Source: a bacterium (lineage in GTDB: Bacteria; CSSED10-310; JAJRTK01). From it: DNA of 35,844 nucleotides. Below are positions 3,742 to 35,844 of this stretch, piece by piece. Every line of letters starts with the position of its first letter. Position 1 is the first letter of the stretch. The position numbers were made by a program, and so were the translations under genes. The notes below the pieces were generated by a model. It saw only the letters and a program-made list of their open reading frames with translations, was not told where the DNA came from and did no database searches. The stretch covers positions 1-35,844 of the forward strand of contig JAJRTK010000086.1 of the NCBI GenBank assembly GCA_024278345.1, written 5' to 3'.

Positions 3742-6700
3742 ATGAAACGAATCGAACCTCTCGCACTTTCTTTTTTCGTCTCTTGTTTCCTGGTTGCCAC
3801 GGTCCATGGCGGGGAATCAGCCAGCATCGGAAAGAGGGGAGCGGTCGGGGTGGAGTCTGGTTTCGCGGCGCGGGCGCCGATTCCTATCCCGGACAATGAT
3901 CCCGCCGGAGTCTTCGATGATATCGTTCTCACGGAACCTGGAAAGCTTCTTGACCTCGACGTGAAGATCACTATTGCTCACCCCTTGGTCGGGGATCTTT
4001 CGGCGATACTGAGCCACCAGGAGACCGGCACGTCGATGGTGCTTTTTGATCGGCCAGGGTTTCCAGCATTGACGGCGGGCTGCTCCCTGCCGGATATCGA
4101 CGCCGCTCTTGACGACGAGGCCGTTTCCCTCGTGGAAGAGGCTTGTAGCGATGTCTCCCCAGCCATTGCCGGCAGCCTCTCTCCCCAAGAGAAACTGGCG
4201 GTTTTTGATGGCGAATACCTGGCTGGGACTTGGCGGCTTCTGGTTGTCGATGGGGCTGCAAAAAACACGGGGATCCTCCAGGGATGGAGCCTGATCTGGA
4301 CCGTGGATACGGCTGCGGGAACGCCGACCTCGACGGCGACACCTAGAAATACAGCCACCCCGACACCCACGTCTACCGCCGCATCGACGGCGACGCCCAC
4401 CCATAGCCCAACCGTCACGTGGACACCTACCGTCAAATCCACTGCCACAGCCACGCCGACCCCGACCGTTACCCCCACCTCCACCCCAACGCTTCCTCCC
4501 GCCATAGGTTCTCTAGCCATGGTGTCAAGCAGTGCCGCTCACGACGTCCGGGGGATCTTCCCCGATGGTGATCATGTCTGGGTGGCCACGCCTCAGGGGC
4601 TCTTATCTTGGGACCTGGCAGGTGCGGCGCCTCGGATGGAGTTTTTGGACACCTTGAGCTCGGGGGTCCCGTCCAGCGATATCACCGACGTGGCCCGAGG
4701 TCATGATGGCGCCCTTTGGATCGCCACGGCGGATCGTGGTGTGACTCGTTACGACGGGGTGGGATGGCAGAGTTTCGACATCTACAACACCGCTGGAGGT
4801 CCGGGAGGCGGTCTCGGGTCTGACGAGGTCCGCGCCATCGCCATGGCAGCGGATCGCACCTGGTTTGGGTTGGCAAACCCCGGTGCCATAGCATTTTTCG
4901 ACGGTTCCCAGTGGGACACGCGACTACTTCCCTATCCAGCCGACGGCGATAGGGTCGTGGACATGGCCCTAGATACACAAGGCATCCTTTGGATCGCCAC
5001 GGCCCAGTCCGGGGCCTTCACCTATGACGGAGCAGAGTTCGGGGTTTTCGGTGTTGCCGAGGGTTTGCCGGCGGGTCTCAGCTCCGTCGGGATCGACCTT
5101 CAGGGGCGCGTCTGGTTTGGACTCGTGGACCAAGGCGTTTACCGATACGATGGGACATTACCGCTCCAGCCCGTTCTCAACGGCCTCCCCTACATGAATG
5201 TGGCCGATGTCGCCGTGGCTCCCGACGGAACGGTTTGGTGCGCCCCTGATAACCTGGGGACGGACGGCTGGACTTCCCGGGCCGGAGAAAGTCGCTCCCA
5301 CGCTCCAGGCGGTCGGCCAGCCTTCGTTTTCTACGACGAGTCCGCCGACCTCTGGACGGAACCGGCAGGCGCGGCCATCTCCAGTACAGCCGCCCTCTCC
5401 ACCATGGAGGTCGCCGGGGACGGAACTCTTTGGCTTGGCTCCAAAGACGAAGGAATGTTTGCCGTTTCCGGCCTGGGTCCCGGCGGTCGCGGAAGGGCGG
5501 CGGTCCAGGTGCTGGACGTGGGAACGACTCCCCCCTGCGTCGATATAAAGGCCTTGGTTCTGGATGGGCAGAGGCGCCTCTGGGCCGGGTGCGCGGCCAA
5601 CGGCATCGCCATGCAGGATGAATCGGGGTGGACCGTTTTTGATAGCGGCAATACCACCGGGCTGCCCATGGCGGCGGAAAGCGTGACCTCCGGCGTGTGG
5701 CAACCGCCTGGAACAGTTTGGTTCGGTACTGCCGGAGGAGGACTACTTTGGGTTGCCAGTGGCGTTTTCGGCACCTTGACCACCGCCGACGGGCTCCCGT
5801 CGAATCAAGTCTGGGCCGTGGCCGTGGACAATGATGGCAATCTCTGGGTTGGAACGAGCTTGGGGGCGTCATGGTACGACGGAGGCAGCTTCTCCACCAC
5901 CTACACCACTGGCGATGGCCTGGCGGACAATGTTGTGACCGGCATCGCCGTGGAGCCTTCTCCGGCCACGGGAGTCTGGTTTGCCACTCCGTGGGGTCTG
6001 AGCCGCCTGGAGGGCGGAGCAATGACGACCTACGCCACGGGCTCGAACCAGCCAGGCGATTTCACGGTCGATCCCTTTCCCGGTGATTTTCAGGAGGTGG
6101 CCGTCGATCCCGATGGCCGCGTCTGGGCGGTCTCCAGCACCGGCGGAGCTGTCTACCTGGAAAACGGGCTGTGGATTCGGGTCGATGAGTCCTGGGGAGT
6201 GGGCCAGACCGCCCTGTACTCCTTGGCCGTCGATGCCGATGGCGCCGTCTGGCTGGGGGGGGAGAGCGAGCTCTATCGATGGCACGACGGAGAAATTATG
6301 GAGTCGCTTGACCGGGAAGATGGCCTTCCCGCTGGCCGGGTCCAGCGACTGCTTTCCGACCAGAGCCTGTCGGGCCGCTTCTGGCTTGGCGGATCTACGG
6401 CGGGCGTCGTGAGCCTGGCCAGGCAGGACAACCGCCCCGTGATCCTCAGTCAGCCAGATCCCGAGGATTTGGCCTGCTCCAGCGTGGAGCTTCGCTGGAC
6501 CCGGTACCGTGGCGACGGCTTCGCCGGCTATCGCCTGATGAGGGCCGAAGTGGCCGTCCTGGATGGCCCAGCGGCAGATTGGAAGATCGGGCTGCTTCTG
6601 ATGCTCCTCGGTACTGGATTTGTTTTTCTGGCAAGGAAGCCGTGCCTGCGAAGAGGAATGGGTATTCTGCTGCTCTTTGCCGCCTGGCATGGCTATGAAG

Positions 6701-7917
6701 GACTGTCGGCCAACCGCGCATTGCAGTACCAGCTCCTCCAGAGCTTCGAAGGCCGCGGCGAAACCGTCTATAGCGACGAAACAGCGGAAGAAGGCAAGTC
6801 GTACCGATATCGGGTCGATGTCATGCTCCAAACCTTCCGAGGAAGAGCGGCAGGATTGTTACCACTTTCCAGCGACGTCATTGTCGTCCGACCTTCCGGC
6901 CGGAGACCCGCCAAGCCCATCCTGCAGTTTGGCGCTGCCACCCATGATTCCGTTCGTCTCGATTGGCCTGCCCCCGTCGCTGGCGGCTTCTGTCCCGCCA
7001 AGGATCTTCAGATCTATCGGGTCGAGGGAAGCCAGATGACGGCTCTTCTGGGAACGCCGGCAGCGCCCACGGCCGGCAGTTTCACCCACACCGGCCTGAC
7101 GGCGGGAACCCGTTACCGCTACCTTTTGCAGGCCTCCAACGCTAACGGCGAATCTCCCGTTTCAGAGCCCATCGATGCCACAACCTCCCTCACCAGCAGC
7201 CAGGAGGGGTTTTGCCGGCCGCTTTCACCGAAGATTTTGACGGCCCGCCCACTTGGGAAAGACAGAATTCGTTTGCGCTGGCAGCCACAGAGTGTTCGAG
7301 GCGCCTGCCGGGCGCGGGGTTACGCCTTATACCGGGTTGAACAAGCGGGAAGATCCCTTGTGGGAACCGTGGGCAAGGGACAGACAACATTCCTTGTGCG
7401 AAACCTTCGTCCCAACACCCAGTACAGTTATGTCGTCACCGCCATGGGGGATCAGGTGGAGTCCGACCCGTCCCTCGAAGCCACCGCGGTAACCACCAGC
7501 AATTCAACCAGAATCTTCGTTCCCGGCGACAGGGCCAACGTCCGAACCGGCCTGGTGCCCCTCCCGGGCCAGACGGTGAACATCTCCTGGATCCGGGGAG
7601 ATGTCCGGTTCAATACCATCCAGGATTTCGGAACGCTGGTGGGCCCAAAAGGCTACGACCGGGCAAGCTTTTTCGTCCATTGGCCCGAGGATGCCAGGTT
7701 TTCCGATCCCTTGAACGGAGCCGAAGACGGCCATGCCGGCCTCCTGGCCATCGTCGATGGCAGGGCCAGCACTGTCGGCGAAGGCAGCAGCATCACCTCC
7801 AACCTTGGCGGAGGCGAGATCCGCCTTGGTATCAACGATGGAACTCTTACCGCCAGTGACGATCCGCTTCTTTCTAACTCCGGAGGTTTCGTGGTGGAGG
7901 TCTCGTTGGAGAATTAG
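3742..7917 (+). CDS. Large secreted P-domain / beta-propeller / FN3 protein
   Basis: 1391-residue exoprotein of unknown role. An N-terminal signal peptide ends near residue 24. Residues about 45-190 resemble a proprotein-convertase P-domain (VGDLSAIL, LAGTWRLLVVD, GWSLIW). A Thr/Pro-rich linker of TPT-type repeats covers about 193-253. Residues about 255-900 form many propeller blades of the two-component-regulator propeller type (GLPSNQVWAVAVDNDGNLWV and relatives). Three FN3-like domains follow (about 905-1030, 1050-1145, 1160-1250). The C-terminal ~135 residues have a GLLAIVDGR...LGINDG pattern reminiscent of LecA/PA-IL-like lectin folds, a weak call. The first FN3 domain is interrupted by a hydrophobic hairpin near 938-996. 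Start: ATG after GGGAAAG. It stands alone as a transcription unit. An adhesion or carbohydrate-binding role would be only a guess. Confidence 0.9.
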   Translation: MKRIEPLALSFFVSCFLVATVHGGESASIGKRGAVGVESGFAARAPIPIPDNDPAGVFDDIVLTEPGKLLDLDVKITIAHPLVGDLSAILSHQETGTSMVLFDRPGFPALTAGCSLPDIDAALDDEAVSLVEEACSDVSPAIAGSLSPQEKLAVFDGEYLAGTWRLLVVDGAAKNTGILQGWSLIWTVDTAAGTPTSTATPRNTATPTPTSTAASTATPTHSPTVTWTPTVKSTATATPTPTVTPTSTPTLPPAIGSLAMVSSSAAHDVRGIFPDGDHVWVATPQGLLSWDLAGAAPRMEFLDTLSSGVPSSDITDVARGHDGALWIATADRGVTRYDGVGWQSFDIYNTAGGPGGGLGSDEVRAIAMAADRTWFGLANPGAIAFFDGSQWDTRLLPYPADGDRVVDMALDTQGILWIATAQSGAFTYDGAEFGVFGVAEGLPAGLSSVGIDLQGRVWFGLVDQGVYRYDGTLPLQPVLNGLPYMNVADVAVAPDGTVWCAPDNLGTDGWTSRAGESRSHAPGGRPAFVFYDESADLWTEPAGAAISSTAALSTMEVAGDGTLWLGSKDEGMFAVSGLGPGGRGRAAVQVLDVGTTPPCVDIKALVLDGQRRLWAGCAANGIAMQDESGWTVFDSGNTTGLPMAAESVTSGVWQPPGTVWFGTAGGGLLWVASGVFGTLTTADGLPSNQVWAVAVDNDGNLWVGTSLGASWYDGGSFSTTYTTGDGLADNVVTGIAVEPSPATGVWFATPWGLSRLEGGAMTTYATGSNQPGDFTVDPFPGDFQEVAVDPDGRVWAVSSTGGAVYLENGLWIRVDESWGVGQTALYSLAVDADGAVWLGGESELYRWHDGEIMESLDREDGLPAGRVQRLLSDQSLSGRFWLGGSTAGVVSLARQDNRPVILSQPDPEDLACSSVELRWTRYRGDGFAGYRLMRAEVAVLDGPAADWKIGLLLMLLGTGFVFLARKPCLRRGMGILLLFAAWHGYEGLSANRALQYQLLQSFEGRGETVYSDETAEEGKSYRYRVDVMLQTFRGRAAGLLPLSSDVIVVRPSGRRPAKPILQFGAATHDSVRLDWPAPVAGGFCPAKDLQIYRVEGSQMTALLGTPAAPTAGSFTHTGLTAGTRYRYLLQASNANGESPVSEPIDATTSLTSSQEGFCRPLSPKILTARPLGKDRIRLRWQPQSVRGACRARGYALYRVEQAGRSLVGTVGKGQTTFLVRNLRPNTQYSYVVTAMGDQVESDPSLEATAVTTSNSTRIFVPGDRANVRTGLVPLPGQTVNISWIRGDVRFNTIQDFGTLVGPKGYDRASFFVHWPEDARFSDPLNGAEDGHAGLLAIVDGRASTVGEGSSITSNLGGGEIRLGINDGTLTASDDPLLSNSGGFVVEVSLEN

Positions 7918-16413: not shown

Positions 16414-17319
16414 ATGACTTTGGCTACCAAGTTCACTTCCCGGTTGAATGTGTGTGCTGCCGCGGCCTTGTTTTCTACAGGGGGAGCCGCCATCAAGAGC
16501 TGTGGTCTCACGGCCTGGCAGGTTGCGGGCTTTCGCTCCGCCATCGCCGCGGTTGCGCTCCTTTTGCTGTTACCGGCCTCAAGGCTCTGGTCGTGGCGGC
16601 GAGCATTGGTGGGGACGGCCTATGCGGCCACCATGATTCTCTTCGTGCTCGGCAATCGTTTGACCACCGCGGCGAACACCATTTTCTTGCAATCGACAGC
16701 GCCTCTTTATGTTCTTCTACTGGGTCCGTGGTTGCTTCGAGAAAAGATCCAGCGGCGGGATCTATTCTTCCTTCTGGCACTCGCCGCGGGTTTTGGCCTC
16801 TTCTTCGTGGGAGTTGAACCGCCGAGGAAAACGGCGCCAAACCCGGAGGCGGGCAACTTCCTGGCGGCCTTGGCCGGGTTTTGCTGGGCCCTGACGCTGG
16901 TAGGACTCAGATGGGTGGAACGTAGGGAAAGTGTGGACGCCGGGGGGGGAGCTTCCGCCGTGGCCATAGGGAATCTCATGGCATTTGCCGTGTCGATTCC
17001 CCAGCTATTCCCCGTCCCATCGGTCAACGCCGTAGATTGGCTTGTTGTTGGATACTTGGGGATCGTGCAGATCGGTCTCGCCTACCTTTTTCTGACGCGG
17101 GGGCTTCAACGAGTCCCGGCGTTTGAAGCCTCCCTCTTGCTGTTGATCGAGCCAGTCCTCAACCCTATCTGGGCTTGGCTGATCCAGTCAGAGGTACCGA
17201 GTTACTGGGCCGTGGCAGGGGGGCTCATCATCATCGTTTCCACCGGCGCGAAGACAGCCGTGGACGCACGATTGTCTCGCCCGCGCCTTCATGAAGGGAA
17301 AGCATCGTTCAAACCGTGA
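16414..17319 (+). CDS. EamA-family (DMT) transporter
   Basis: 301-residue inner-membrane protein with about ten hydrophobic helices in two EamA repeats, the architecture of drug/metabolite transporters. LTTAANTIFLQSTAPLYVLL in the first half and LGIVQIGLAYLFLTRGLQRV followed by LLLLIEPVLNPIWAWLI in the second half are typical of the family. The substrate cannot be predicted. The ATG at 16414 directly abuts GGAAGGG, so the in-frame TTG two codons later (16420) is an equally good start; upstream in-frame starts give a hydrophilic extension not typical of the family. Its stop lies inside the last codons of tadB on the other strand, and a terminator overlaps both. Confidence 0.88.
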   Translation: MTLATKFTSRLNVCAAAALFSTGGAAIKSCGLTAWQVAGFRSAIAAVALLLLLPASRLWSWRRALVGTAYAATMILFVLGNRLTTAANTIFLQSTAPLYVLLLGPWLLREKIQRRDLFFLLALAAGFGLFFVGVEPPRKTAPNPEAGNFLAALAGFCWALTLVGLRWVERRESVDAGGGASAVAIGNLMAFAVSIPQLFPVPSVNAVDWLVVGYLGIVQIGLAYLFLTRGLQRVPAFEASLLLLIEPVLNPIWAWLIQSEVPSYWAVAGGLIIIVSTGAKTAVDARLSRPRLHEGKASFKP

Positions 17320-18190
17320 TGGTGACGGTTTTTTTGATGAAGATGTAGCCAAGGATGTCAAAGACGACAGCCAAAAATATGCAAATCCGACCGATGGTGG
17401 TTGTGAGAAGGGGTCGGACGAGCTGGGGTTGCATAAGTCCCAAGAGGGCGATGAATGCGAAGGGCAAAAAACAGGCGACGATGCCTTGGGTCATGCCAAG
17501 TGCCGTGAGAGACTCGATCTTGCCTTCCACTTTTTTCCGTTCCCGGATCGTATAGGTCACGGTGTCGAAAGTTTCCGGAAGGCTGCCGCCGGTTTCCCGG
17601 AGAGTGAGGATTGCCGTGATGACGATATCGAGATCCTTGATGTGCAGTCGGTTGCTCATGTTCAAGAGAGCATCGTCCAGAACGGCTGACAGCTTCTGTT
17701 CTCGCAGGACCAGCTCGAACTCCTGGGAGATGGGGGGAGACATTTCGGCGACGACGATCTTGAATCCCTGGAGCAGCGACAACCCGGAGCGGAGCGCGTT
17801 GGCCAAAAGAACCAGCGCATCGACAAGCTGCGCTTCAAATTCCCTCTTTCGTTTTTCGATCCGCCGCCGGGCCAGCCATGCCGGGATCTTCCATCCCAGC
17901 CAGCAGCCGAAGACAAGCAAGATGAAGCAGTAAAAGGGGATCGCGAAACCAAGGACGATGGGCAAGAAGAAGCCGAAAGCCACTCCCACAATGAGCATCG
18001 AAAACAAGATTTGAAGCTTGGCTTGGAAAGGGGTGAGGCCCTTGAATTGAAACTCGGCCTGGTCCGTGAGCCATTGAGCGTGTTTTCCAAGGAGACCATC
18101 CTTTTCGTTGGAGAGGGCTCTGTACAGCATGGACCCGGCCGACGTAAAGATAAGGAGCAGTGCGAAGTAGAACGTGACATGGTGAGTCAT
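17309..18190 (-). CDS. tadB: Tad pilus assembly platform protein TadB
   Basis: 293-residue inner-membrane protein of the GspF/T2SSF family, the platform of Tad (Flp) pilus machines. Hydrophobic helices lie near residues 5-20, 60-80, 85-103 and two at the C-terminus (about 235-255, 270-288). The cytoplasmic T2SSF domain has the usual pattern LVDALVLLANALRSGLSLLQ and LRETGGSLPETFDTVTYTIR. The ATG overlaps the TadZ-TadA stop by four bases (ATGA), so translation is coupled to the motor ATPase. A second platform gene, TadC, normally follows but is absent; the next gene is the convergent EamA transporter, which overlaps by 11 bp. Confidence 0.92.
   Translation of the reverse strand: MTHHVTFYFALLLIFTSAGSMLYRALSNEKDGLLGKHAQWLTDQAEFQFKGLTPFQAKLQILFSMLIVGVAFGFFLPIVLGFAIPFYCFILLVFGCWLGWKIPAWLARRRIEKRKREFEAQLVDALVLLANALRSGLSLLQGFKIVVAEMSPPISQEFELVLREQKLSAVLDDALLNMSNRLHIKDLDIVITAILTLRETGGSLPETFDTVTYTIRERKKVEGKIESLTALGMTQGIVACFLPFAFIALLGLMQPQLVRPLLTTTIGRICIFLAVVFDILGYIFIKKTVTITV
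17311..17335 (+). terminator. Rho-independent terminator overlapping two stop codons
   Basis: AAACCGT (17311-17317) pairs with ACGGTTT (17325-17331) around a 7-nt loop, followed by further T residues (seven in a row overall). It terminates the EamA gene and lies over the stop codon of that gene and the last codons of tadB. Confidence 0.72.
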
Positions 18191-20430
18191 GATGAGCTTC
18201 CTGCCGTGAGCAGCCCCATTTCGCTTGGCTGTCCTGTTTCTTGGCGGTACTCCCGAAGAATCCGCAAGTCGGCGCGATCCTTGACCTTGAAGACCGATAG
18301 CGGCAACTGGATCCCCCTGCGGGCAAGTTCGTGAACGAAGGGGGGAACGTAGCCTGTGGGAATGAATCGCCCCACGACACGGCCGTCCGCGGAGGTGCCG
18401 GTTTGCTTGAAGATGAAAATGTCCTTGAGTTGCATTTCCCCCACTCCACCTGGCTGGAGCACGTGAGTCACGTGGGTGATTTTGCGGCTGCCGTCGATGG
18501 AGAACCTAGTGGTCTGGACGATGATGTCGATGGCTGCTCCGATTTGGTCTCGGATGGCTCGACTCGGGAGTTCGAGGCCGGCGAAGAGGACCATCGTTTC
18601 CAGCCGGGAGAGGGAATCGCGGGGACTATTGGCGTGGATGGTGGTCAGGGAGCCGTCGTGGCCCGTATTCATCGCCTGGAGCATGTCGAGGGCCTCACCG
18701 CCTCGGCATTCGCCCACCACAATTCGATCAGGTCGCATGCGAAGAGCATTTCGAACGAGGTCTCGGATGGTGACCTCTCCTTCGCCCTCGATGTTGGAGG
18801 GCCTTGCTTCCAGTCGCCCGACATTCTCCTGAGGCAACTGGAGCTCAGCGGCATCTTCCAGGGTCAAAATCCGCTCGTGGGCCGGAATAAAGGAGGAGAG
18901 AAGGTTGAGAAGAGTCGTCTTTCCCGATCCCGTGCCTCCAGCAATAAGAATGTTCATGCGTCCCACCACTGCAGCCTCGAAGAATTGCGCCATGGATTTG
19001 TTCAGGCTGTCAAAGCGAATGAGATCGTCAATGGTGAAGGGCACTTTTGCAAATTTCCGAATGGTCAACATCGGGCCGTCAATGGAGATGGGCGGAATGA
19101 CCGCATTGACTCGCGATCCGTCCGGCAAACGCGCATCGACGAAGGGAGTCGATTCATCGACTCGCCGGCCCAGCGGGCTGACAATTCGTTCGATCACTCC
19201 CAATAACTGCTTGTTGCTGACGAAAGAAGAGTCGGTCAGCTCGATTCTACCGCCTCTTTCGACGTAGATCCGGGTGGCGCGGTTGACCATGATTTCCGAA
19301 ACTGTCGGATCCGCCAAAAGTTCTTCCAAGGGGCCGAGGCCTAGCGCCTCGTCAAGGATTTCTCGAGCGGTTCGTCTGCGATCCGCTCTGCTAAGGAGAC
19401 CTGCACCTTCCTCGTCCAGGATATCCACGATGGCCCGCAGGGTTTCGTCTCTTACGGCGCGAGCTCGATCCGGATCACCTGCCGTATCAAAATCCATGTG
19501 CCTCAGATCGAGCTTCTCGATGAGGCGGCCATGCACTTTCTCCTTGATGGCGTTGATGGCCAGTTGGCGCTGTTCGTGTTCGCTGATTTGGCCTCGGCCC
19601 GGCTGTTGCCCCCGGTGCCCGGGTGTCTTCGAAGCCGCGGCGGGAATACCAGTCTGTTGCAGAGCAACTTTCCCAAGGAGACCATCGCCCTTACCCTTGG
19701 CCCCAGCGAGCTTGAGAGCCAGTTCCGTGATTTTCCTCGATACCGCGGCCCGAGGCGACGAAGTAACGAGAGGCACTTGATCGCTCATCGACTGAACAAC
19801 GGAACTCGTATCGGACGGAAATGTCGCCATCACCGGTCGGCGGAGGTTCTGCTCGATCATCCGTGGGTCAACGGGGCTCCGACGGGACAAACGGTTTGCC
19901 AGGACGTGAATTCGCTCCCGCGCAAAATGCTGCTCCTGGAGATACCCGATGAGAGATCGCCCCTGGTGAACGGAGAGAAGGGAGGGGCCCATGAGGACAC
20001 AGATGCCGTGGCTTTGGTCCAAAAGCGCCATGAGATGCTCCGACAGGCAAGCACCTCCATCAACGACGATAAAATCGTAGACGGGCGACAAGAGGCGCAG
20101 AATCTGCGACACTTGCTCCCCGCTCAGGGGGAGAGCCTCGCTTTCCAAGAGGGACGCCGCCAGCACTTCGATACCCGACTCGTGCCGTGTCATGTACCCT
20201 CGCAGCAAAGCTGGATCGAGCGTGTCCAGGACGGCGGCCAGGTCAAGCATCGAACGGCAGCTATCAAGGCCCAACATAAAGTTGGCATCACCACCGAAGG
20301 GGGTGTTGAAATCAATGAACAGGACTTTCCGCCCCGTCAGCCTGCGAAGCTCGACGGCGAGGTTCACGGCGATGAAAGTCGCACCCTCGCCGCCCTTGGA
20401 GCCCAGTATCGAAACCACCTGCGCGGCCAT
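18187..20430 (-). CDS. tadA: TadZ-TadA fusion: MinD-like localisation domain joined to Tad motor ATPase
   Basis: 747-residue fusion of two Tad proteins that are normally separate. Residues 1-245 are a TadZ/CpaE-type MinD-like ATPase with the deviant Walker motif KGGEGAT (12-18), [18 protein letters not shown] near 39-56 and [12 protein letters not shown] near 122-133. This family places the machine in the cell. A linker (about 245-285) leads into a full CpaF/TadA secretion ATPase. That part has [20 protein letters not shown] near 361-380, Walker A GGTGSGKT near 498-505, the Asp box [31 protein letters not shown] and [13 protein letters not shown]. The frame is open throughout and ATG 20430 lies 16 bp past the cpaC stop. 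An upstream in-frame start would overlap cpaC. The operon is cpaC-this gene-tadB. Confidence 0.93.
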
Positions 20431-20446
20431 CAGCTTCGTCCGTTGC

Positions 20447-21898
20447 TCAGTTACTGGAAAAATCGACGGAAAATTTCGGTTCCACGCCAATGTCGAACTC
20501 TAGCTTTTCCTTGAGCTTCGCGTCCACTTCAGGGATCCCGTCCATGGGCGTGAGAACCGTCGGCGTCACGAAAATCACGAGTTCAGCCTTGTTGAGATCC
20601 AACCTCTTTGCGCCGAAAAAATGGCGGATGAGTGGGATTTTGCCCAAGAAGGGCCACCCCGAGAAGTTTCGTCGCAGCCGGTTCGACAAGAGCCCTGAAA
20701 GGACCAGGGTCTGATTCTTTCGCAGAATGACCGACGTTTTGACCTCGTCTTTCGAAAAGGCTTGGGCGAAGACTCCTTGTCCCCGGACGACGTCCGAGGG
20801 GAAAACCGCCGCCACTGAAATCTGGACATCGACGTTGTCGTCCTTGTCCACAAGGGGCGACACTTCCACGATGATGCCGAACTCTTTGTATGTCACCGAG
20901 ACGTTGTTGTTGGTGACGACGATGACTGGAACTTCGCCGCCATCCACGACCTCGCGGGCAGTTTCCCCGTTTTTGCAGATGATTCGCGGATTCAGAAGCT
21001 GCTTGCCCGCACCTTCATCCACGAGGATGTTAATGCTGGGCAAAAAATTCTCCAGGATCGCCTCCGACTTCCAATCGAAGTCCTCCGTCTTGCCGTCGGT
21101 CAAGGTGTAACTGCTTTTGCTCTCTCCCAAGGTATTGCCCCAGTCCAGACCCCAGTCCCGAAGATCGGTATACCGAATCGAGACGAACCGAATATCGAAG
21201 TGAACCATCTTGTCGTCCCGGAAAAATCGGCCCTGATCTTTGAGCTCGATGACGTTCACCACCCGATCCGGAGAAAGGCTCCTGGCGATTGATTCGGCGC
21301 GCTCAAGTTGACTTTTCGAGTAGGCGAAGCCCTCGAGGAGAATGCTGTCTTTGAGGACTCGAGCGTGGATTTCCTGCCGCCTAATCGCCTTTTCGATCTC
21401 CTGCGCCAGAAGATCCAGCGCCTCGGGATCCAGGCGAACTTCATTGACCACGACATCACTGACGCCGGATACCTGCTTGGCAACGAACTGGAAGTCCTTT
21501 TCCGAGTAGACGGAGCCCCGGATGAAGATGCGATCCTGCTTGATGAGGATTTCAATTCCCGTAATGTTCTCGAAGAGCTGGGCCAAGTCTTGAGCAAGGC
21601 GGGTCAGGTCGGGAACGACCTGGACCTGATAGGAGTCACGTTTCACGCCTTTGGTGTCAAAAAGGATGAGATTCGTCGTGCCACGCCCCTTGGGCACAAG
21701 AATAATCTGCATCCGATCCTTAGGCACCACAAAGTCGCAAACACCGGGGTCACCGATGGAAGTACGCCCGATCTTGTAGCCCGGACTCATGACGTGATTG
21801 ACGCCTCGAATGAGTGTCAAAGAAGAAGACTGTGCGTGGAGGCTCTGTCCCGCTGACAAGAACAGGCCTACCAGAAGCATCGTCGCCCAACGTTTCAT
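20447..21898 (-). CDS. cpaC: Tad outer-membrane secretin (CpaC/RcpA)
   Basis: 483-residue secretin that forms the outer-membrane channel of Tad pili. The ATG at 21898, after GAGAGG and before MKRWATMLLVGLFLSAG, starts a signal peptide ending at HAQ; an earlier in-frame start would put hydrophilic residues before it. The N-terminal pilus-secretin domain has KIGRTSIGDPGVCDFVVP. BON-like repeats follow (IRGSVYSEKDFQFVAKQVSG and ILLEGFAYSKSQLERAESIA). The C-terminal secretin domain covers about 240-460, with VPVIVVTNNNVSVTYKEFGI, VILRKNQTLVLSGLL and the end motif KIPLIRHFFGAK...ELVIFVTP. It is the first gene of the three-gene Tad operon. Confidence 0.93.
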   Translation of the reverse strand: MKRWATMLLVGLFLSAGQSLHAQSSSLTLIRGVNHVMSPGYKIGRTSIGDPGVCDFVVPKDRMQIILVPKGRGTTNLILFDTKGVKRDSYQVQVVPDLTRLAQDLAQLFENITGIEILIKQDRIFIRGSVYSEKDFQFVAKQVSGVSDVVVNEVRLDPEALDLLAQEIEKAIRRQEIHARVLKDSILLEGFAYSKSQLERAESIARSLSPDRVVNVIELKDQGRFFRDDKMVHFDIRFVSIRYTDLRDWGLDWGNTLGESKSSYTLTDGKTEDFDWKSEAILENFLPSINILVDEGAGKQLLNPRIICKNGETAREVVDGGEVPVIVVTNNNVSVTYKEFGIIVEVSPLVDKDDNVDVQISVAAVFPSDVVRGQGVFAQAFSKDEVKTSVILRKNQTLVLSGLLSNRLRRNFSGWPFLGKIPLIRHFFGAKRLDLNKAELVIFVTPTVLTPMDGIPEVDAKLKEKLEFDIGVEPKFSVDFSSN

Positions 21899-22142
21899 CC
21901 TCTCGCTCTCCTGCATTGGTGACCGCGCAACGAGGGTTTCCGCCAACTCAAGGAATTGGATCCCCTACCGGAATCTTGCTGCAGACCTTCCAAACACATC
22001 CTCGCTTCGGAAGGTGACAGTGGAAGACCCGCAAAGCTTAACAGGAGCTATACTGGTTTTGGCGGCAAAGGTCGACCGTTCTCACGGGACAAGCCCCATC
22101 CAAAAAAACGCTCCAAGGCTCTAAGATCCCCGCGGTAGTGGG

Positions 22143-29481: not shown

Positions 29482-31503
29482 TCAAGGGGGCGCGACCTCC
29501 GCCACCAGTGCGTGGACAAGACTCTCCAGAGCCTCTTGGCTTGGCGGGAGGCCGGGCCGGAAGAGTTGGCGGTGGAGCTCCTGGTATAGGCGTATGGCCG
29601 ATTGCTTGGCTGTGGCCTTGGGCCAGGGCGTGACTTTCGCGCAACGGCCAACCTGCATGGCGTCTCTGGCGACGCAGGCCGAAAGAAGACCGGATTCCGT
29701 GCGGATCTCCAGCGGCAGCCCCCACTCCCGTCCCTCCAGGCGAGGGGATTTTTGGAGCAAGCGGAGCGCAGCTTTGGCAGCCCTGCCGGTAGTGGGAACG
29801 AAGAAGACGGGAAGGCGCAGCTCAAGCCTTCGCAGGACTCCGGGATCGCCTTGGAGGAGCTTCTGAAATAGGGATTTTGCCAGGCGCGTTTGCCCGGTTT
29901 TGGCTGCGGCGTGGCCAGCGATGGCGGTGACCCGGCTTCGAAGAAGGGCTTCAGAGGAGGAGAGGCCTTGGAGGGCGCTTCGAGCAAGAGTCAGCGCTTC
30001 TTCATGCTCTTGCCGCCGAAACCGGATCTCCGCTTCCACGGCATCCAGATAGGCCTTTGCCGCCATGCCCGGCAGGCTCAGGCGTGCTGCCGCAACCGAG
30101 GCCAGAGCAACCCCGGATCCCAGTATGGGAATAAGCTCGCCCCGATGCCATTCTGGAAGCTTTGGACCCCCGGGGGCATAGGGCTCAAAGGCCTTCTTCA
30201 GTATGCCGCCGCGGGAGAGGAGGGATGCTGTCCGCCGGGCGAGCTTCCAGCGCTGGAGACGAAGCTTCCATCGCTCAAGAATTCCGGCGCCATACGCCGC
30301 CCAGCCCATCAGGGGCAGCCTCTCCGAAAGTCGTCCAATGCTGAGAGTTTTCGCCCCGTGGCCGCTGGCCGCCGCGGCAGTGAGAATCCGGCGGACATCG
30401 AAGCTGGCCAGTCCCGTTCTTCCCGGTTGTTCCAAGACTCTTCGCGCCAGGTCCGCCGCCTCGGGTCCGTCGCCTGCCACCAGGAGCAGGAGGGATCCCG
30501 TCAGGAGGGTCTCGTCGGCGCTGAGCTGCCGGAGGCTCGGCGGTTGCCGTGCGGCCCAGGCGGCCGCTTTTTGCAGGCCGTCCGCGGCCTTGGCCCACCT
30601 ACCCTGAGCCAGTTCCAGCCGGGTGGCATCGCTCCAGGGATTGACGGAGGCGCTCCACGGGGAGAAGGTCACTGTTTTTTCCAGCCACTGGCGCGCGAGG
30701 TCGAACCGGAACACGCCAAGGGCGGCCTGAGCTGCGTTGAGGAATACCTGGGCCGTCTCCAAATCGTGCTCCCGGTCGTAGCGGGCGGCATCTGAGCAGG
30801 CTTCGAATGCCTCGGCGCGCCTACTCAGCTCCCATTCTAGGGCGCAGAGGGTTGTTTTTGCATAGCTTACTTCCTCGGGTTGCCCAGTTTCGAGGGCCTT
30901 CTTGATGGCTGCTCTGGCGGCGTCGTATCTTCGGAGCCGAAGGAGAGGCCAGCCATCACGGCCAGCCCAGCCGGGGAAGGAGAACCCGTGCAATTTCCGG
31001 ATCTCCATCACTAACTTTCGCCGTTTTTCGTGAAGGTTGAGCTGCTCCTGAAAACGCTCCATCTCGCCAGCGATGCTGGCTAGTTCTTCCACCGCCCAGA
31101 GCCGCCAAAGAAAAGGTGCTGTTGCAAGATCTTGCCCTTGGAGCTGCCGCCACGCCAGGTGTAAATGGCGGGCCGCTTGCGGCAGGCTCCCTTCGCTTCG
31201 GTGAAGAGAGAAGCCCATCAGGAAATGCCCCAGGTAGGAATCCGGTTCTTTCCGCAAGATCTTCTCTGCCAGCGTTCGGGCCTCCATGAGTTGCTCTTCG
31301 GCGACGACCTTGAATGCGTCCAAGCGGACTGGTTCGTTCCCGAGGCCCGGGATTTCTTCCCTGGTTTCTTCCCCGCCTTGCGGAGGCTGGGCTGGAAGAT
31401 CAAGTGTGCAAAAGAAGAGAAGGAGAGCAAGAAAAGCCACCTGGCCCTGGCTGCCGGGGAGTCTCCGCACAACCTGAAAACTCGATGGATGGAGGTTTTT
31501 CAT
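29482..31503 (-). CDS. Long TPR protein, exported or membrane-anchored
   Basis: 673-residue protein. The N-terminus has a hydrophobic stretch (VAFLALLLFFCTLDL) ending in PAQ, consistent with a signal peptide or anchor. Most of the rest is TPR-like helix pairs (for example ARTLAEKILRKEPDSYLGHFLMG, ALGVFRFDLARQWLEKTV, AKTGQTRLAKSLFQKLLQGDP). The start is taken at the ATG at 31503; the next upstream in-frame codon is a TTG that adds eight residues. No enzyme motif. It lies about 90 bp after the MoxR gene on the same strand, so it probably belongs with the MoxR/TgpA-like cluster, where TPR proteins are common partners. Confidence 0.82.
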   Translation of the reverse strand: MKNLHPSSFQVVRRLPGSQGQVAFLALLLFFCTLDLPAQPPQGGEETREEIPGLGNEPVRLDAFKVVAEEQLMEARTLAEKILRKEPDSYLGHFLMGFSLHRSEGSLPQAARHLHLAWRQLQGQDLATAPFLWRLWAVEELASIAGEMERFQEQLNLHEKRRKLVMEIRKLHGFSFPGWAGRDGWPLLRLRRYDAARAAIKKALETGQPEEVSYAKTTLCALEWELSRRAEAFEACSDAARYDREHDLETAQVFLNAAQAALGVFRFDLARQWLEKTVTFSPWSASVNPWSDATRLELAQGRWAKAADGLQKAAAWAARQPPSLRQLSADETLLTGSLLLLVAGDGPEAADLARRVLEQPGRTGLASFDVRRILTAAAASGHGAKTLSIGRLSERLPLMGWAAYGAGILERWKLRLQRWKLARRTASLLSRGGILKKAFEPYAPGGPKLPEWHRGELIPILGSGVALASVAAARLSLPGMAAKAYLDAVEAEIRFRRQEHEEALTLARSALQGLSSSEALLRSRVTAIAGHAAAKTGQTRLAKSLFQKLLQGDPGVLRRLELRLPVFFVPTTGRAAKAALRLLQKSPRLEGREWGLPLEIRTESGLLSACVARDAMQVGRCAKVTPWPKATAKQSAIRLYQELHRQLFRPGLPPSQEALESLVHALVAEVAPP

Positions 31504-31594
31504 GAAATCGCCCCGTCGGAATGACAACGGAACTCCCGCTTCAGGCTCAAGTTTCTGGAAGGGATGGCTTTGCGCTTGTGAAGAAAAGCAGGCT

Positions 31595-32692
31595 CTAGCG
31601 GCTGCTCAGGGTCGCCTTGGCCAGCCGTTCCAGAGGGGCAAAGGCCGCGTCATTCAGGATGTCCTGAACCTCGATAACACCGGGCGCAAGTTCCATTCTG
31701 TGACCAAAGATTCTGGGGCAGAGCTCCTCGATATCTTCCGCGGAGACATAGTCCCGCCCTTTCAGAGCCGCGTGGGCCTGGAGCGCCGGGAGCGATAGAA
31801 CGAGGCTTCTGCTAGATGCCCCTTGAAGCACCCGTTCGTCCGCCCTCGTGGCCCGAGCGATATCCACAAGACACTCCTTGATGAGGTCGCTGATGGCCAC
31901 TTGCCGGTCCACCACCTGCCGCGCCTGGGAAATCTCCGTCCGCGTGACCTTGGGAAGGCCGCACTTTTCCAGGTTTCGCCGTTCCCGATAGGTACCAAGA
32001 ACGCGAATCTCCGCTTCCCGATCGATGTGGTCCATCTGGATACGGAATAGAAAGCGGTCCATTTGCGCCGCCGGCAGGGGATAAGTTCCGGCGAGATCCA
32101 GCGGGTTCTGCGTCGCGATGACAAAAAATACCTCGTCCAGGGGAAAGGTCACGTTGTCCACGGTGACCTGCTTTTCCGCCATCGCTTCCAGCATCGCCGA
32201 CTGGACTTTCGGAGAGGTCCGGTTGATCTCATCGGCAAGCACCACGTGGGCGAAGATGGGCCCATGGCGGAAGTGGAAGCTGCTGGTGGAGGCATCGAAC
32301 ACCGAAATGCCTGTCACATCTGATGGGAGAAGGTCTGGGGTAAACTGTATCCTTCGAAACGCAGCGACGTAGTCGTCGGGTCGGTCGTCGATGATGGAGA
32401 GCCCCAGCGCTTTGGCCAGGGTTGTCTTTCCCGAGCCCGGGCAATCTTCCAAGAGCAAGTGCCCATCGGCCAGGAGCGCGACAATGACCAGGTCGATCAC
32501 CTCGTCGCGACCGATCATCGCGGCCTGCATTCGTTTTCGGAGGCGATGGGCGATCTCCGTTACCTGTTCCAGGGACTCCACGGATCGGCGGCGCATCTCA
32601 CTGGGGACTTTCCGAATCGCGGTCCGTTCCGCTTCGTCCATCTGCAGGAGAGGAGATTGTTTGGCGTCGGTCATGGCGCTTTCGTGCTGCAT
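31595..32692 (-). CDS. MoxR-family AAA+ ATPase
   Basis: 365-residue cytoplasmic AAA+ ATPase of the MoxR group, chaperone-like enzymes that help assemble or activate other proteins. Walker A is EDCPGSGKTT near residues 82-91, where Cys-Pro and Ser replace the usual VPGVGKT. Walker B is VLADEINRTSPKVQSAMLEA near 151-170, the sensor is IATQNPLDLAGTYPLPAAQMDRF near 191-213, and the C-terminal lid has VSAEDIEEL. The ATG at 32692 follows GGGAGG at seven bases. Members usually sit beside a DUF58 gene and a transglutaminase-like gene; here the TgpA-like gene is upstream and the TPR gene downstream, but no DUF58 gene is present between 31503 and 35121. Confidence 0.95.
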   Translation of the reverse strand: MQHESAMTDAKQSPLLQMDEAERTAIRKVPSEMRRRSVESLEQVTEIAHRLRKRMQAAMIGRDEVIDLVIVALLADGHLLLEDCPGSGKTTLAKALGLSIIDDRPDDYVAAFRRIQFTPDLLPSDVTGISVFDASTSSFHFRHGPIFAHVVLADEINRTSPKVQSAMLEAMAEKQVTVDNVTFPLDEVFFVIATQNPLDLAGTYPLPAAQMDRFLFRIQMDHIDREAEIRVLGTYRERRNLEKCGLPKVTRTEISQARQVVDRQVAISDLIKECLVDIARATRADERVLQGASSRSLVLSLPALQAHAALKGRDYVSAEDIEELCPRIFGHRMELAPGVIEVQDILNDAAFAPLERLAKATLSSR

Positions 32693-32928: not shown

Positions 32929-35121
32929 TCAGCGGGATCGAGCCCAGGAAAAGGGGTCTAGCAGCCGCAGGAGGCGGCGCCCCCCGGAAACTGGCCCCTG
33001 CAGCTCACGGTGAACGGCCAGAAGGAGGGAGCGGACCCTCCCGGCAGGCTCCGGTACCTTGCGTGATCCCAGGGCCGCCGCAAGGTGAATTTCAGTGAGG
33101 ACCGGGAACGAAGGAGAGAAGTCGGCTACGCGCTGGGCGAAACGCTCCCGACTTTCGCCATCTCGCCGCACAATCCCGGTTTCCGCTAACGCGTCGAGGG
33201 CCGCCCGGTAAGCCTGAAAAGGAATCCGGCCGCTCCGAAAGAAAGGCCGCCAACGCCGAAAAAACTTGATGCCGTAGATCCCAAGAAAGAGCAAACCCGC
33301 AAGGCGAAGGAGGATCGCAATTCCCGCGGGAAAGCTAAATGGCGGAGGGAGGCCCGCACTCTCCGGGACCTCGGCGCGGAGCTCTTGGAGAAGTAGCTCT
33401 CCAAGAAGAGTCTGCAATTCCCAGTCAGGCTCCGCGGGAGCCCGTGCCCCCAGCTTCGGCCGTGGATCGATGGGAACCCAGCCCGCGCCAGCCAGGTAGA
33501 TTTCGCACCAGGCACGGGCGTCGGCACCCCGAAGGAGCAGCGTCGATCCCTGTCTTTTCCGGGATTCAGGGACCGCGTATCCCGTGACAACGCGGCTGGG
33601 AAGACCCAGGCTCCGAAGGAGAAGTGCCGCGGACTGGGCAAAGAAAAGGGAATGCCCCTTTCGACTCCGAAAGAGGAATGAGCCCATGGGATCGTCTCGA
33701 TCCGCGGCGCGGCATTCACCCATGAGCGTTCCCCGCTCCCCGAGCCAGTCCCGGATTGCCAGGGCCCGGGCAAAAGGAGAGGAGGCGCGTTCCACGGGAA
33801 GAGCCGCGACAATCCGCCGCGCCAGATCCCCATAGCGCGGATCCGAGGGCGCACGGGACAGGATTGCCCGTTCCTCCCATGTCCAGTCTTGGTTTCCTGC
33901 CTCTTCGGCCAGCAATTCGGAGAGAGGAGTCGAAGGCAGCCGCGTCCGAAGTCCGTAGATCCAGCGGAAACGATGGCGCGAAGAGGTGGCCTCGGGCCAG
34001 ATCTCCAATGCATCTCCCAGGACAAAGGGCCGGATCCTCTCAGAGAGCAGCCCCACGCGGACTTCTACCGGGATTTGGTCCTCGGAGGAAGCGCCATGGA
34101 GAGGGAAAGTGGTCCGCGGAAAAGGGAGAGATCGCGGAGGCTCGAGGTTTTTGGCGTTGAGCTTTCCCAGGGACTCTTTTTCACCGTGGAGCCGGGGGTA
34201 GATGCCGGAGGAAAAATAGTAGAAGCCTCCGGGAGTAGAGGTCTCATTCCCAAAGAGGACCACCGCCACTGGTTCGGTGGCACCGAAGGTGGGGTCGAGC
34301 CGCTCTGGTTGGAGCCCTTCAAAGTAAGGGGAAAGCTGGGCTGCCCGAAGCTCCCCTTGGTTCGGAAGCCTTGTTCCCGGAGAGAGCCCCAGTCCCGGAC
34401 CTTCTGGCGAGGGTGGCGCCGGCGGCCCCAACCAGGCAAGGGATAACGCGGTTCCGGCCCCGGCAAGTCCCAGAAGCACGGCCTGGAGACCGAGCCGCCC
34501 ATTTTTGCTCTCACGGAGCAGCAATCCGGCCATGACCAGGGCTGTCAATCCGCCGAAAACCAGGAGAACCAAGGCCGGATCAAGCCCGTTGGTGAAGCTC
34601 CAATCCGAGAGAATCCGGGGCCGGTGGATTTGCCCGCTCCTGTGCCCTCCCAGGGCCGTCGCCACCGCCGTAGCGACAAAAGCAATCTCTAGGAAAACCG
34701 CCATGGGTTGCCGGCGAGCCAACATTTGCAGAAGAAAGCCGCCGGCCAACATTGCGGGGCACCAGAAGAGTATCTCCCCCAGCAAAAATAGGAGACCGGG
34801 ACCCAGTAGGTGGCTCAGTGCCTCGCTGTTGACCGCGCTGCCGGAAAACCAGCTTCCCCCAAGAAAAAAAAAGAGCCCCGCCGCCACCGCCACGCGGACA
34901 GGGAACCGCCTGTTCGCCAGAAAGGCCCCCGCCAATCCCCCCGCAAAGCAGAGAATGGTCCCTGCCAGTAAGACGGGAAAAACCGTCCAAGGCCAAAACA
35001 GAAGCCCTGCCGCCCCTGCCATGGCCAAGGAATGAAAGATAGAATGCAATGAGAGGGAGCTGGTTGAGCTCATGGAGAGAAACAGTGCTCCACCGGCCCC
35101 CCTTTCCACTTCGGCACCCAT
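32929..35121 (-). CDS. TgpA-like membrane protein with inactive transglutaminase-like domain
   Basis: 730-residue protein with about six N-terminal hydrophobic helices, a periplasmic domain and one more helix near 600-620. It ends in a DUF4129-like cytoplasmic tail (RIPFQAYRAALDALAETGIV, ESRERFAQRVADF). The transglutaminase core is recognisable (FFAQSAALLLRSLGLPSRVVTGYAV, AGWVPIDPRP). The catalytic Cys of the usual GHC-xxFA is Ser (GHSLFFA, about residue 491) and the catalytic His of DAHAW is Arg (DARAW, about 536); only the Asp of IDP remains. So it is predicted not to cleave or cross-link peptides. The ATG at 35121 follows GGAGG; a GTG five codons earlier is possible. Operon with MoxR. Confidence 0.88.
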   Translation of the reverse strand: MGAEVERGAGGALFLSMSSTSSLSLHSIFHSLAMAGAAGLLFWPWTVFPVLLAGTILCFAGGLAGAFLANRRFPVRVAVAAGLFFFLGGSWFSGSAVNSEALSHLLGPGLLFLLGEILFWCPAMLAGGFLLQMLARRQPMAVFLEIAFVATAVATALGGHRSGQIHRPRILSDWSFTNGLDPALVLLVFGGLTALVMAGLLLRESKNGRLGLQAVLLGLAGAGTALSLAWLGPPAPPSPEGPGLGLSPGTRLPNQGELRAAQLSPYFEGLQPERLDPTFGATEPVAVVLFGNETSTPGGFYYFSSGIYPRLHGEKESLGKLNAKNLEPPRSLPFPRTTFPLHGASSEDQIPVEVRVGLLSERIRPFVLGDALEIWPEATSSRHRFRWIYGLRTRLPSTPLSELLAEEAGNQDWTWEERAILSRAPSDPRYGDLARRIVAALPVERASSPFARALAIRDWLGERGTLMGECRAADRDDPMGSFLFRSRKGHSLFFAQSAALLLRSLGLPSRVVTGYAVPESRKRQGSTLLLRGADARAWCEIYLAGAGWVPIDPRPKLGARAPAEPDWELQTLLGELLLQELRAEVPESAGLPPPFSFPAGIAILLRLAGLLFLGIYGIKFFRRWRPFFRSGRIPFQAYRAALDALAETGIVRRDGESRERFAQRVADFSPSFPVLTEIHLAAALGSRKVPEPAGRVRSLLLAVHRELQGPVSGGRRLLRLLDPFSWARSR

Positions 35122-35147
35122 CACCGAGGCCTCCACTTCAGAGGGTG

Positions 35148-35844
35148 TTATGACTTCATCTTGGCGTACAGTTTCGTGGCCTCATTGCAGTTGATCAAGA
35201 GCTGAATGTTGTAGTTTCCTATGATTTTGAGATCCTGGGGCGTGGGAAGAGCGCCACCCGCCGTGCTTTCCAGTCGAGGCCGAAAGGCGCTCCAAATCCG
35301 ATCCACACGGTCAAGGAATTTCAGTATCGCGTCATCCGTGGTTTCGCTCAGGCCAAGACCTTCATCTCCCCCGCGCAGCCCCGTGTTTGACTTGTCGAAG
35401 AGCTCGAACGTCTTGCGAAGTCGCTTCCGGTTTTCTTCCCGGGCGACATCCAAGGCGATAAGAAAATACTCTTTCGACATTTTTTGACTCAGCATGCGCT
35501 GCCGACCCGCAATATTCACGGCATTGGCTGCTGATCCCTTGGACTGGGAGATCACGGATTTTGCTCGGGCGACGTACATTTCCACCGCCCGGTTGCTCTC
35601 TACGAGAAGTGAAAGCCCCAATTCGTCGAGCTTGAGTAAAACACTGGGCGGAAAAGCGCCTTGATCCGCTCCCGCTTCCAACTGGCCTTTGTATTGGGTC
35701 CAGATGCCAAGGATCTTTTCGAGTTGAGCCAGGATCTTCGGATCCTCCGTTGCCGGCAGTCCCAGACCTTTGTTGGGACCTATCAAATCCCCGTGTTTTT
35801 GCTTTACACTCCGCGGCGCCGCCCTGGTGGCACCGGCATCTTGC
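35148..35844 (-). CDS. PilJ-type sensor-domain protein (5' end outside window)
   Basis: The frame is open to the right window edge, so the N-terminus, probably with a signal peptide, is missing; 231 residues are visible. Two related helical units are present, each ending in a similar Asn-containing motif (LLVESNRAVEMYVARAK and LLINCNEATKLYAKMK). Between them is the PilJ/NarX-like signature IAGRQRMLSQKMSKEYF. In other proteins this domain is a periplasmic ligand sensor of type IV pili methyl-accepting or nitrate sensor proteins, but here no signalling domain follows, since the stop comes right after the second unit. It may be a free-standing periplasmic binding protein. It is 26 bp upstream of the TgpA-like gene, likely the same operon. 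Confidence 0.82.
   Translation of the reverse strand, partial: QDAGATRAAPRSVKQKHGDLIGPNKGLGLPATEDPKILAQLEKILGIWTQYKGQLEAGADQGAFPPSVLLKLDELGLSLLVESNRAVEMYVARAKSVISQSKGSAANAVNIAGRQRMLSQKMSKEYFLIALDVAREENRKRLRKTFELFDKSNTGLRGGDEGLGLSETTDDAILKFLDRVDRIWSAFRPRLESTAGGALPTPQDLKIIGNYNIQLLINCNEATKLYAKMKS

Follow-up and report, generated by a model that had tools for sequence, protein, structure and literature searches.

Locus

The window (the whole stretch of DNA analysed here, 35,844 nucleotides of contig JAJRTK010000086.1) carries on its minus strand a gene for a TgpA-like protein, placed between a PilJ-domain gene that is cut through by the contig end and genes for a MoxR-family ATPase and a TPR protein. 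The features of the locus, with active-site residues assigned by alignment to relatives, are as follows.

35148..35843, minus strand: PilJ-domain (PF13675) gene, truncated by the contig end, occupying the place of DUF58 in relatives
32929..35136, minus strand: TgpA-like protein that has lost the catalytic Cys and His, 735 aa from GTG (ATG at 35121)
34429..35049, minus strand: N-terminal membrane helices, residues 30-236 (hydropathy and AlphaFold2 model), with normal conservation
33367..34284, minus strand: predicted periplasmic domain, residues ~285-590 (fold model), with anomalous loss of conserved residues
33463..33795, minus strand: Transglut_core (PF01841) match, residues 448-558 (Pfam, E 5.6e-17)
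33649..33651, minus strand: Ser496 (TCC), at the catalytic Cys position
33514..33516, minus strand: Arg541 (CGT), at the catalytic His position
33505..33507, minus strand: Cys544, three residues after Arg541, found in 5 intact orthologues too and not diagnostic
33466..33468, minus strand: Asp557 (GAT), the kept third member of the triad
32932..33333, minus strand: C-terminal membrane helix and predicted cytosolic DUF4129-like tail, residues 602-735, with normal conservation
31595..32692, minus strand: MoxR-family AAA+ ATPase (PF07726), intact, with 120 of 123 near-invariant residues kept
29482..31527, minus strand: TPR protein, orthologous to the fourth gene of the operon and with a signal-like segment at its N-terminus
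Locus L126, 2929-4287, minus strand: displaced DUF58 orthologue, beside aminotransferase-like and histidine kinase-like genes

The TgpA-like frame is open for 735 codons, starting with the GTG at 35136 and closing with the stop at 32929; the end at 35121 given in a preliminary description of this DNA is the ATG at codon 6. Third-position G+C is normal (0.67). The hydropathy profile and an AlphaFold2 model built from 33 aligned sequences (mean pLDDT 77) agree on the layout of the TgpA-like family: membrane helices at the N-terminus, then a large domain (residues ~285-590), a further membrane helix (602-633) and, last, a helical tail; the periplasmic side of the large domain is read across from TgpA and is thus a predicted one. 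The Transglut_core match (62.4 bits) lies above the Pfam cut-off of 23, and a DUF4129 match at residues 642-695 is weak (21.4 bits; cut-off, 24.8), despite which the tail can be aligned to orthologues. The domain modelling called for in the preliminary description gave a confident transglutaminase fold in the core (pLDDT ~85-95), and the best PDB fold match was the TgpA periplasmic domain (6g4h/6g49), which was also the first choice of the sequence profile.

Passages of the published work on Pseudomonas aeruginosa TgpA (PA2873) describe an essential protein whose gene shares a transcript with PA2875 and PA2874 and whose periplasmic part acts as a transglutaminase in vitro (PMC3507681). Like that protein, the one encoded here has inner-membrane helices, a transglutaminase domain predicted as periplasmic, a further membrane helix and a tail, and its gene is clustered with neighbours. 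Unlike TgpA, which has Cys-His-Asp, it lacks the Cys and the His, and identity over the fold alignment is ~19%. Judged by its residues, it is a homologue within the TgpA-like family and not an enzyme of that family.

Two other regions of the window were annotated. A 1391-aa protein (3742-7917) combines propeller repeats of the two-component-regulator type with two fibronectin type III domains and a P-domain-like match. Consecutive genes at 17309-21946 encode a secretin, a T2SSE ATPase that carries a fused MinD-like domain, and a T2SSF protein; this row is probably a pilus or secretion cluster of the tad type.

Orthologues and operon

Orthologous loci were located by scanning with the MoxR protein of the window (~70% identity to its best matches), which returned 80 loci; a contig scan with the TgpA protein itself, using search patterns drawn from variable stretches, matched no relative. 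A long TgpA-like relative lay directly before MoxR in 74 of the 80 loci. Addition of whole-genome matches and removal of copies gave 159 TgpA orthologues, among which some near-copies may remain. No TgpA or TPR orthologue was found in seven other genomes of the same phylum.

The gene order in relatives is DUF58, TgpA, MoxR, TPR, with MoxR after TgpA in all 74 and TPR after MoxR in 65, and the order of these last three genes is identical in the window. The window TgpA is a true orthologue, in an operon conserved in Acidobacteriota and Myxococcota (loci L038-L117). Those operons differ from the window in keeping the catalytic Cys and His and in having DUF58 directly before TgpA (57 of the 58 relatives with room upstream, small overlaps counted), where the window has the PilJ-domain gene, 12 bases from TgpA. 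This was the only PilJ-domain gene found in the genome, and no homologue of it was present in the 80 MoxR loci. The DUF58 orthologue of the genome is on another contig, C497 (40% identity to the DUF58 protein of L043), where it adjoins a branched-chain aminotransferase-like gene (named from sequence). A join of C497 to the contig end of the window was considered and rejected (no overlap; no PilJ start on C497).

The departure of DUF58 from the operon favours one rival account of the protein, relaxed selection after operon break-up, in which catalysis became unneeded and the gene is in early decay with no stop codon yet. The intact frame of 735 codons with normal third-position G+C speaks against it; the conservation data given below bear on it from both sides.

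Active site

Alignment to relatives bore out the residues read in the preliminary description: the catalytic Cys is Ser496 (TCC), the catalytic His is Arg541 (CGT) and the Asp is kept (Asp557). Further changes surround the nucleophile position (V497L, H498F, H501Q) or lie elsewhere (R309S, D330N and D332E, among others). Catalysis by the classical triad thus appears to be lost. Sequencing or assembly error was rejected as a cause because 17 near-invariant positions are changed in an open frame with normal third-position G+C.

Across the 159 orthologues, the Cys is kept in 158 and the His in every one, and the third position is Asp in 149, Glu in 9 and Asn in 1; set against them, the window alone has lost both Cys and His. 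The preliminary description had counted orthologues with Cys-His against its own reading, and, taken literally, that is what the family holds; on the sequences compared here, the change would be private to the window lineage, since Cys-His is found family-wide. Because the His was never lost and the Cys only once among the orthologues, the Ser/Arg state is, on this alignment, a loss derived along a single long branch.

The sole Cys loss among the 159 is in genome G684 (L226/L248), where Cys is replaced by Ala. There, the orthologue (L248:2180-5767, minus strand) is a 1196-aa protein with two transglutaminase domains, an ancestral one that carries the Cys to Ala change and an inserted one with the motif KGVCRHRAYAF and a triad that looks intact. 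The G684 protein resembles the window protein in having an ancestral domain without the catalytic Cys; it differs in keeping the His and in carrying the second domain. Separately, a distant TgpA-like protein (L021, genome G027) has Ser at the catalytic Cys position and keeps His and Asp.

By combining the loss of Cys with a gained intact domain in one chain, L248 gives some support to the idea that activity has moved to another protein of the lineage, leaving the window protein as a non-catalytic partner. Seven proteins of the window's genome match Transglut_core, the window TgpA included; at least two of the six others have intact triads in MoxR-type operons, namely those on contigs C373 and C140, each encoded within a MoxR-DUF58 cluster and with Cys, His and Asp all in place. 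Against this idea, the other proteins are distant paralogues in operons of their own, with nothing that ties them to the window operon, and we consider such a transfer of labour very unlikely. The same search answered the preliminary description's concern that a second active paralogue might mark this copy as decaying: the two intact TgpA-like proteins are not second copies of the window gene, and no second active orthologue was found in the genome sequence searched.

A domain still active through altered chemistry, with Ser496 or a migrated Cys544 as nucleophile, has a precedent in the migrated catalytic residues of papain-like folds (for example, GP42, with His next to Cys; PMC10318531), and Ser, Cys and Asp all lie near the site. 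The canonical His is lost, however, as are the conserved H498 and H501 beside the nucleophile. The Cys three residues after Arg541, described earlier as new, is correctly placed (Cys544) and is not peculiar to this protein: 5 of the 159 orthologues, all with intact Cys and His, have Cys there, so that it means little and was rejected as a replacement for the lost nucleophile. Likewise, six orthologues with the canonical His in place also have His at the position of His495, which hence gives no sign of a new base. Altered chemistry is accordingly the least credible of the accounts weighed here and should be given hardly any weight.

Distribution of conserved-residue loss

Near-invariant residues were scored leave-one-out over 69 aligned full sequences. 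The window TgpA has lost 17 of 62, and the next worst orthologue 5 of 59. For the other proteins of the same lineage, losses were 3/123 (MoxR), 2/30 (DUF58) and 5/24 (TPR), the last being similar to other TPR orthologues. All TgpA losses fall within residues 298-583, and every scored near-invariant residue in the membrane and cytosolic parts is kept. Relative to the identity of orthologues with one another, identity of the window protein is 0.90 in the membrane part, 0.98 in the cytosolic tail, 0.78 in the transglutaminase core and 0.60 in the first periplasmic lobe. The ratio of periplasmic identity to that of the membrane and cytosolic parts is 1.02 in the window, compared with 1.38 in 108 orthologues (SD, 0.06; minimum, 1.22).

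End branches follow the same division. For the periplasmic part, the window branch is 2.32 long (next longest, 1.23), and for the rest of TgpA it is 1.14, with two other rows about as long; the lineage is a long branch for DUF58 and TPR too, and only the periplasmic part of TgpA stands far beyond the next row. In a Fisher test of losses inside and outside the periplasmic part, 14/36 against 0/10 gave p 0.02 at a conservation threshold of 95%; at stricter thresholds the test was not significant (p 0.14 and 0.29) because few columns remain. From the identity, branch and residue-loss comparisons, the enzyme part is seen to be altered while the membrane and cytosolic parts are conserved normally, as are the partners MoxR and DUF58; the loss is local, as far as these alignments reach.

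Two statements of the preliminary description need to be narrowed in this light. It held that the transglutaminase core was otherwise well kept, which is true of the fold and not of the conserved periplasmic residues, lost far beyond any orthologue. It also took the intact frame as a mark of selection; the protein is still constrained, mainly in its membrane and cytosolic parts.

Early decay gains from two features of these data, namely that the conserved-residue losses are many and scattered across the periplasmic domain, and that the window TgpA is the fastest evolving of the 69 relative to MoxR (rank 1). It is the main rival to a retained non-catalytic role, and a recent loss still under relaxation would give a pattern similar to that of a retained pseudoenzyme. 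Membrane and cytosolic parts of normal identity with all scored near-invariant residues in place are not predicted by decay of the whole gene, however, and the periplasmic domain also keeps many of its structural residues. We regard early decay as unlikely, while giving it more weight than any other rival; the pattern fits a protein that would have lost catalysis and been retained rather than decay of the whole gene.

Interpretation

The window protein is likely to be an orthologue of the transglutaminase-like membrane subunit of the DUF58-TgpA-MoxR-TPR envelope system, in a derived and catalytically dead form that would keep its membrane and cytosolic role; it probably serves as a membrane component without enzymatic function. 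Its conservation suggests that it may have been retained for the link that the membrane and cytosolic parts still provide between the cytosolic MoxR ATPase and the envelope. What remains of the periplasmic domain would be a folded module, without catalysis, that serves in docking or sensing and has perhaps been adapted to the PilJ-domain protein encoded directly upstream, and any crosslinking or hydrolysis still needed could be done by the other transglutaminase-like proteins of the genome. The binding or scaffold role proposed in the preliminary description is something we infer only. In a stronger version, the pseudo-transglutaminase would have been remodelled into a sensor's receiver. Bound to it, the PilJ-domain protein would control MoxR by way of the conserved membrane and cytosolic parts, taking the place of both catalysis and a local DUF58; we think this improbable, placing it below early decay and above a transfer of activity to another protein.

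Inactive proteins with the transglutaminase fold are known in eukaryotes (for example, EPB42 and FBXO21), and migrated active sites also occur in the fold (PMC10318531). EPB42 and FBXO21 likewise have the fold without catalysis and use it in assemblies; they differ from the window protein in belonging to an unrelated lineage and setting, with no MoxR operon. A literature search of open-licence papers found none on a natural TgpA-like pseudoenzyme, and a search there on inactive transglutaminase-like proteins of bacteria likewise returned none.

The window TgpA can be viewed as a natural experiment on a widespread and poorly understood MoxR system. The essential TgpA of P. aeruginosa raises the same question, because the published passages on it do not separate activity from the presence of the protein. 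If the window protein works without the triad, TgpA-like subunits would have a second role, the coupling of the ATPase to the envelope, that is separable from enzyme activity.
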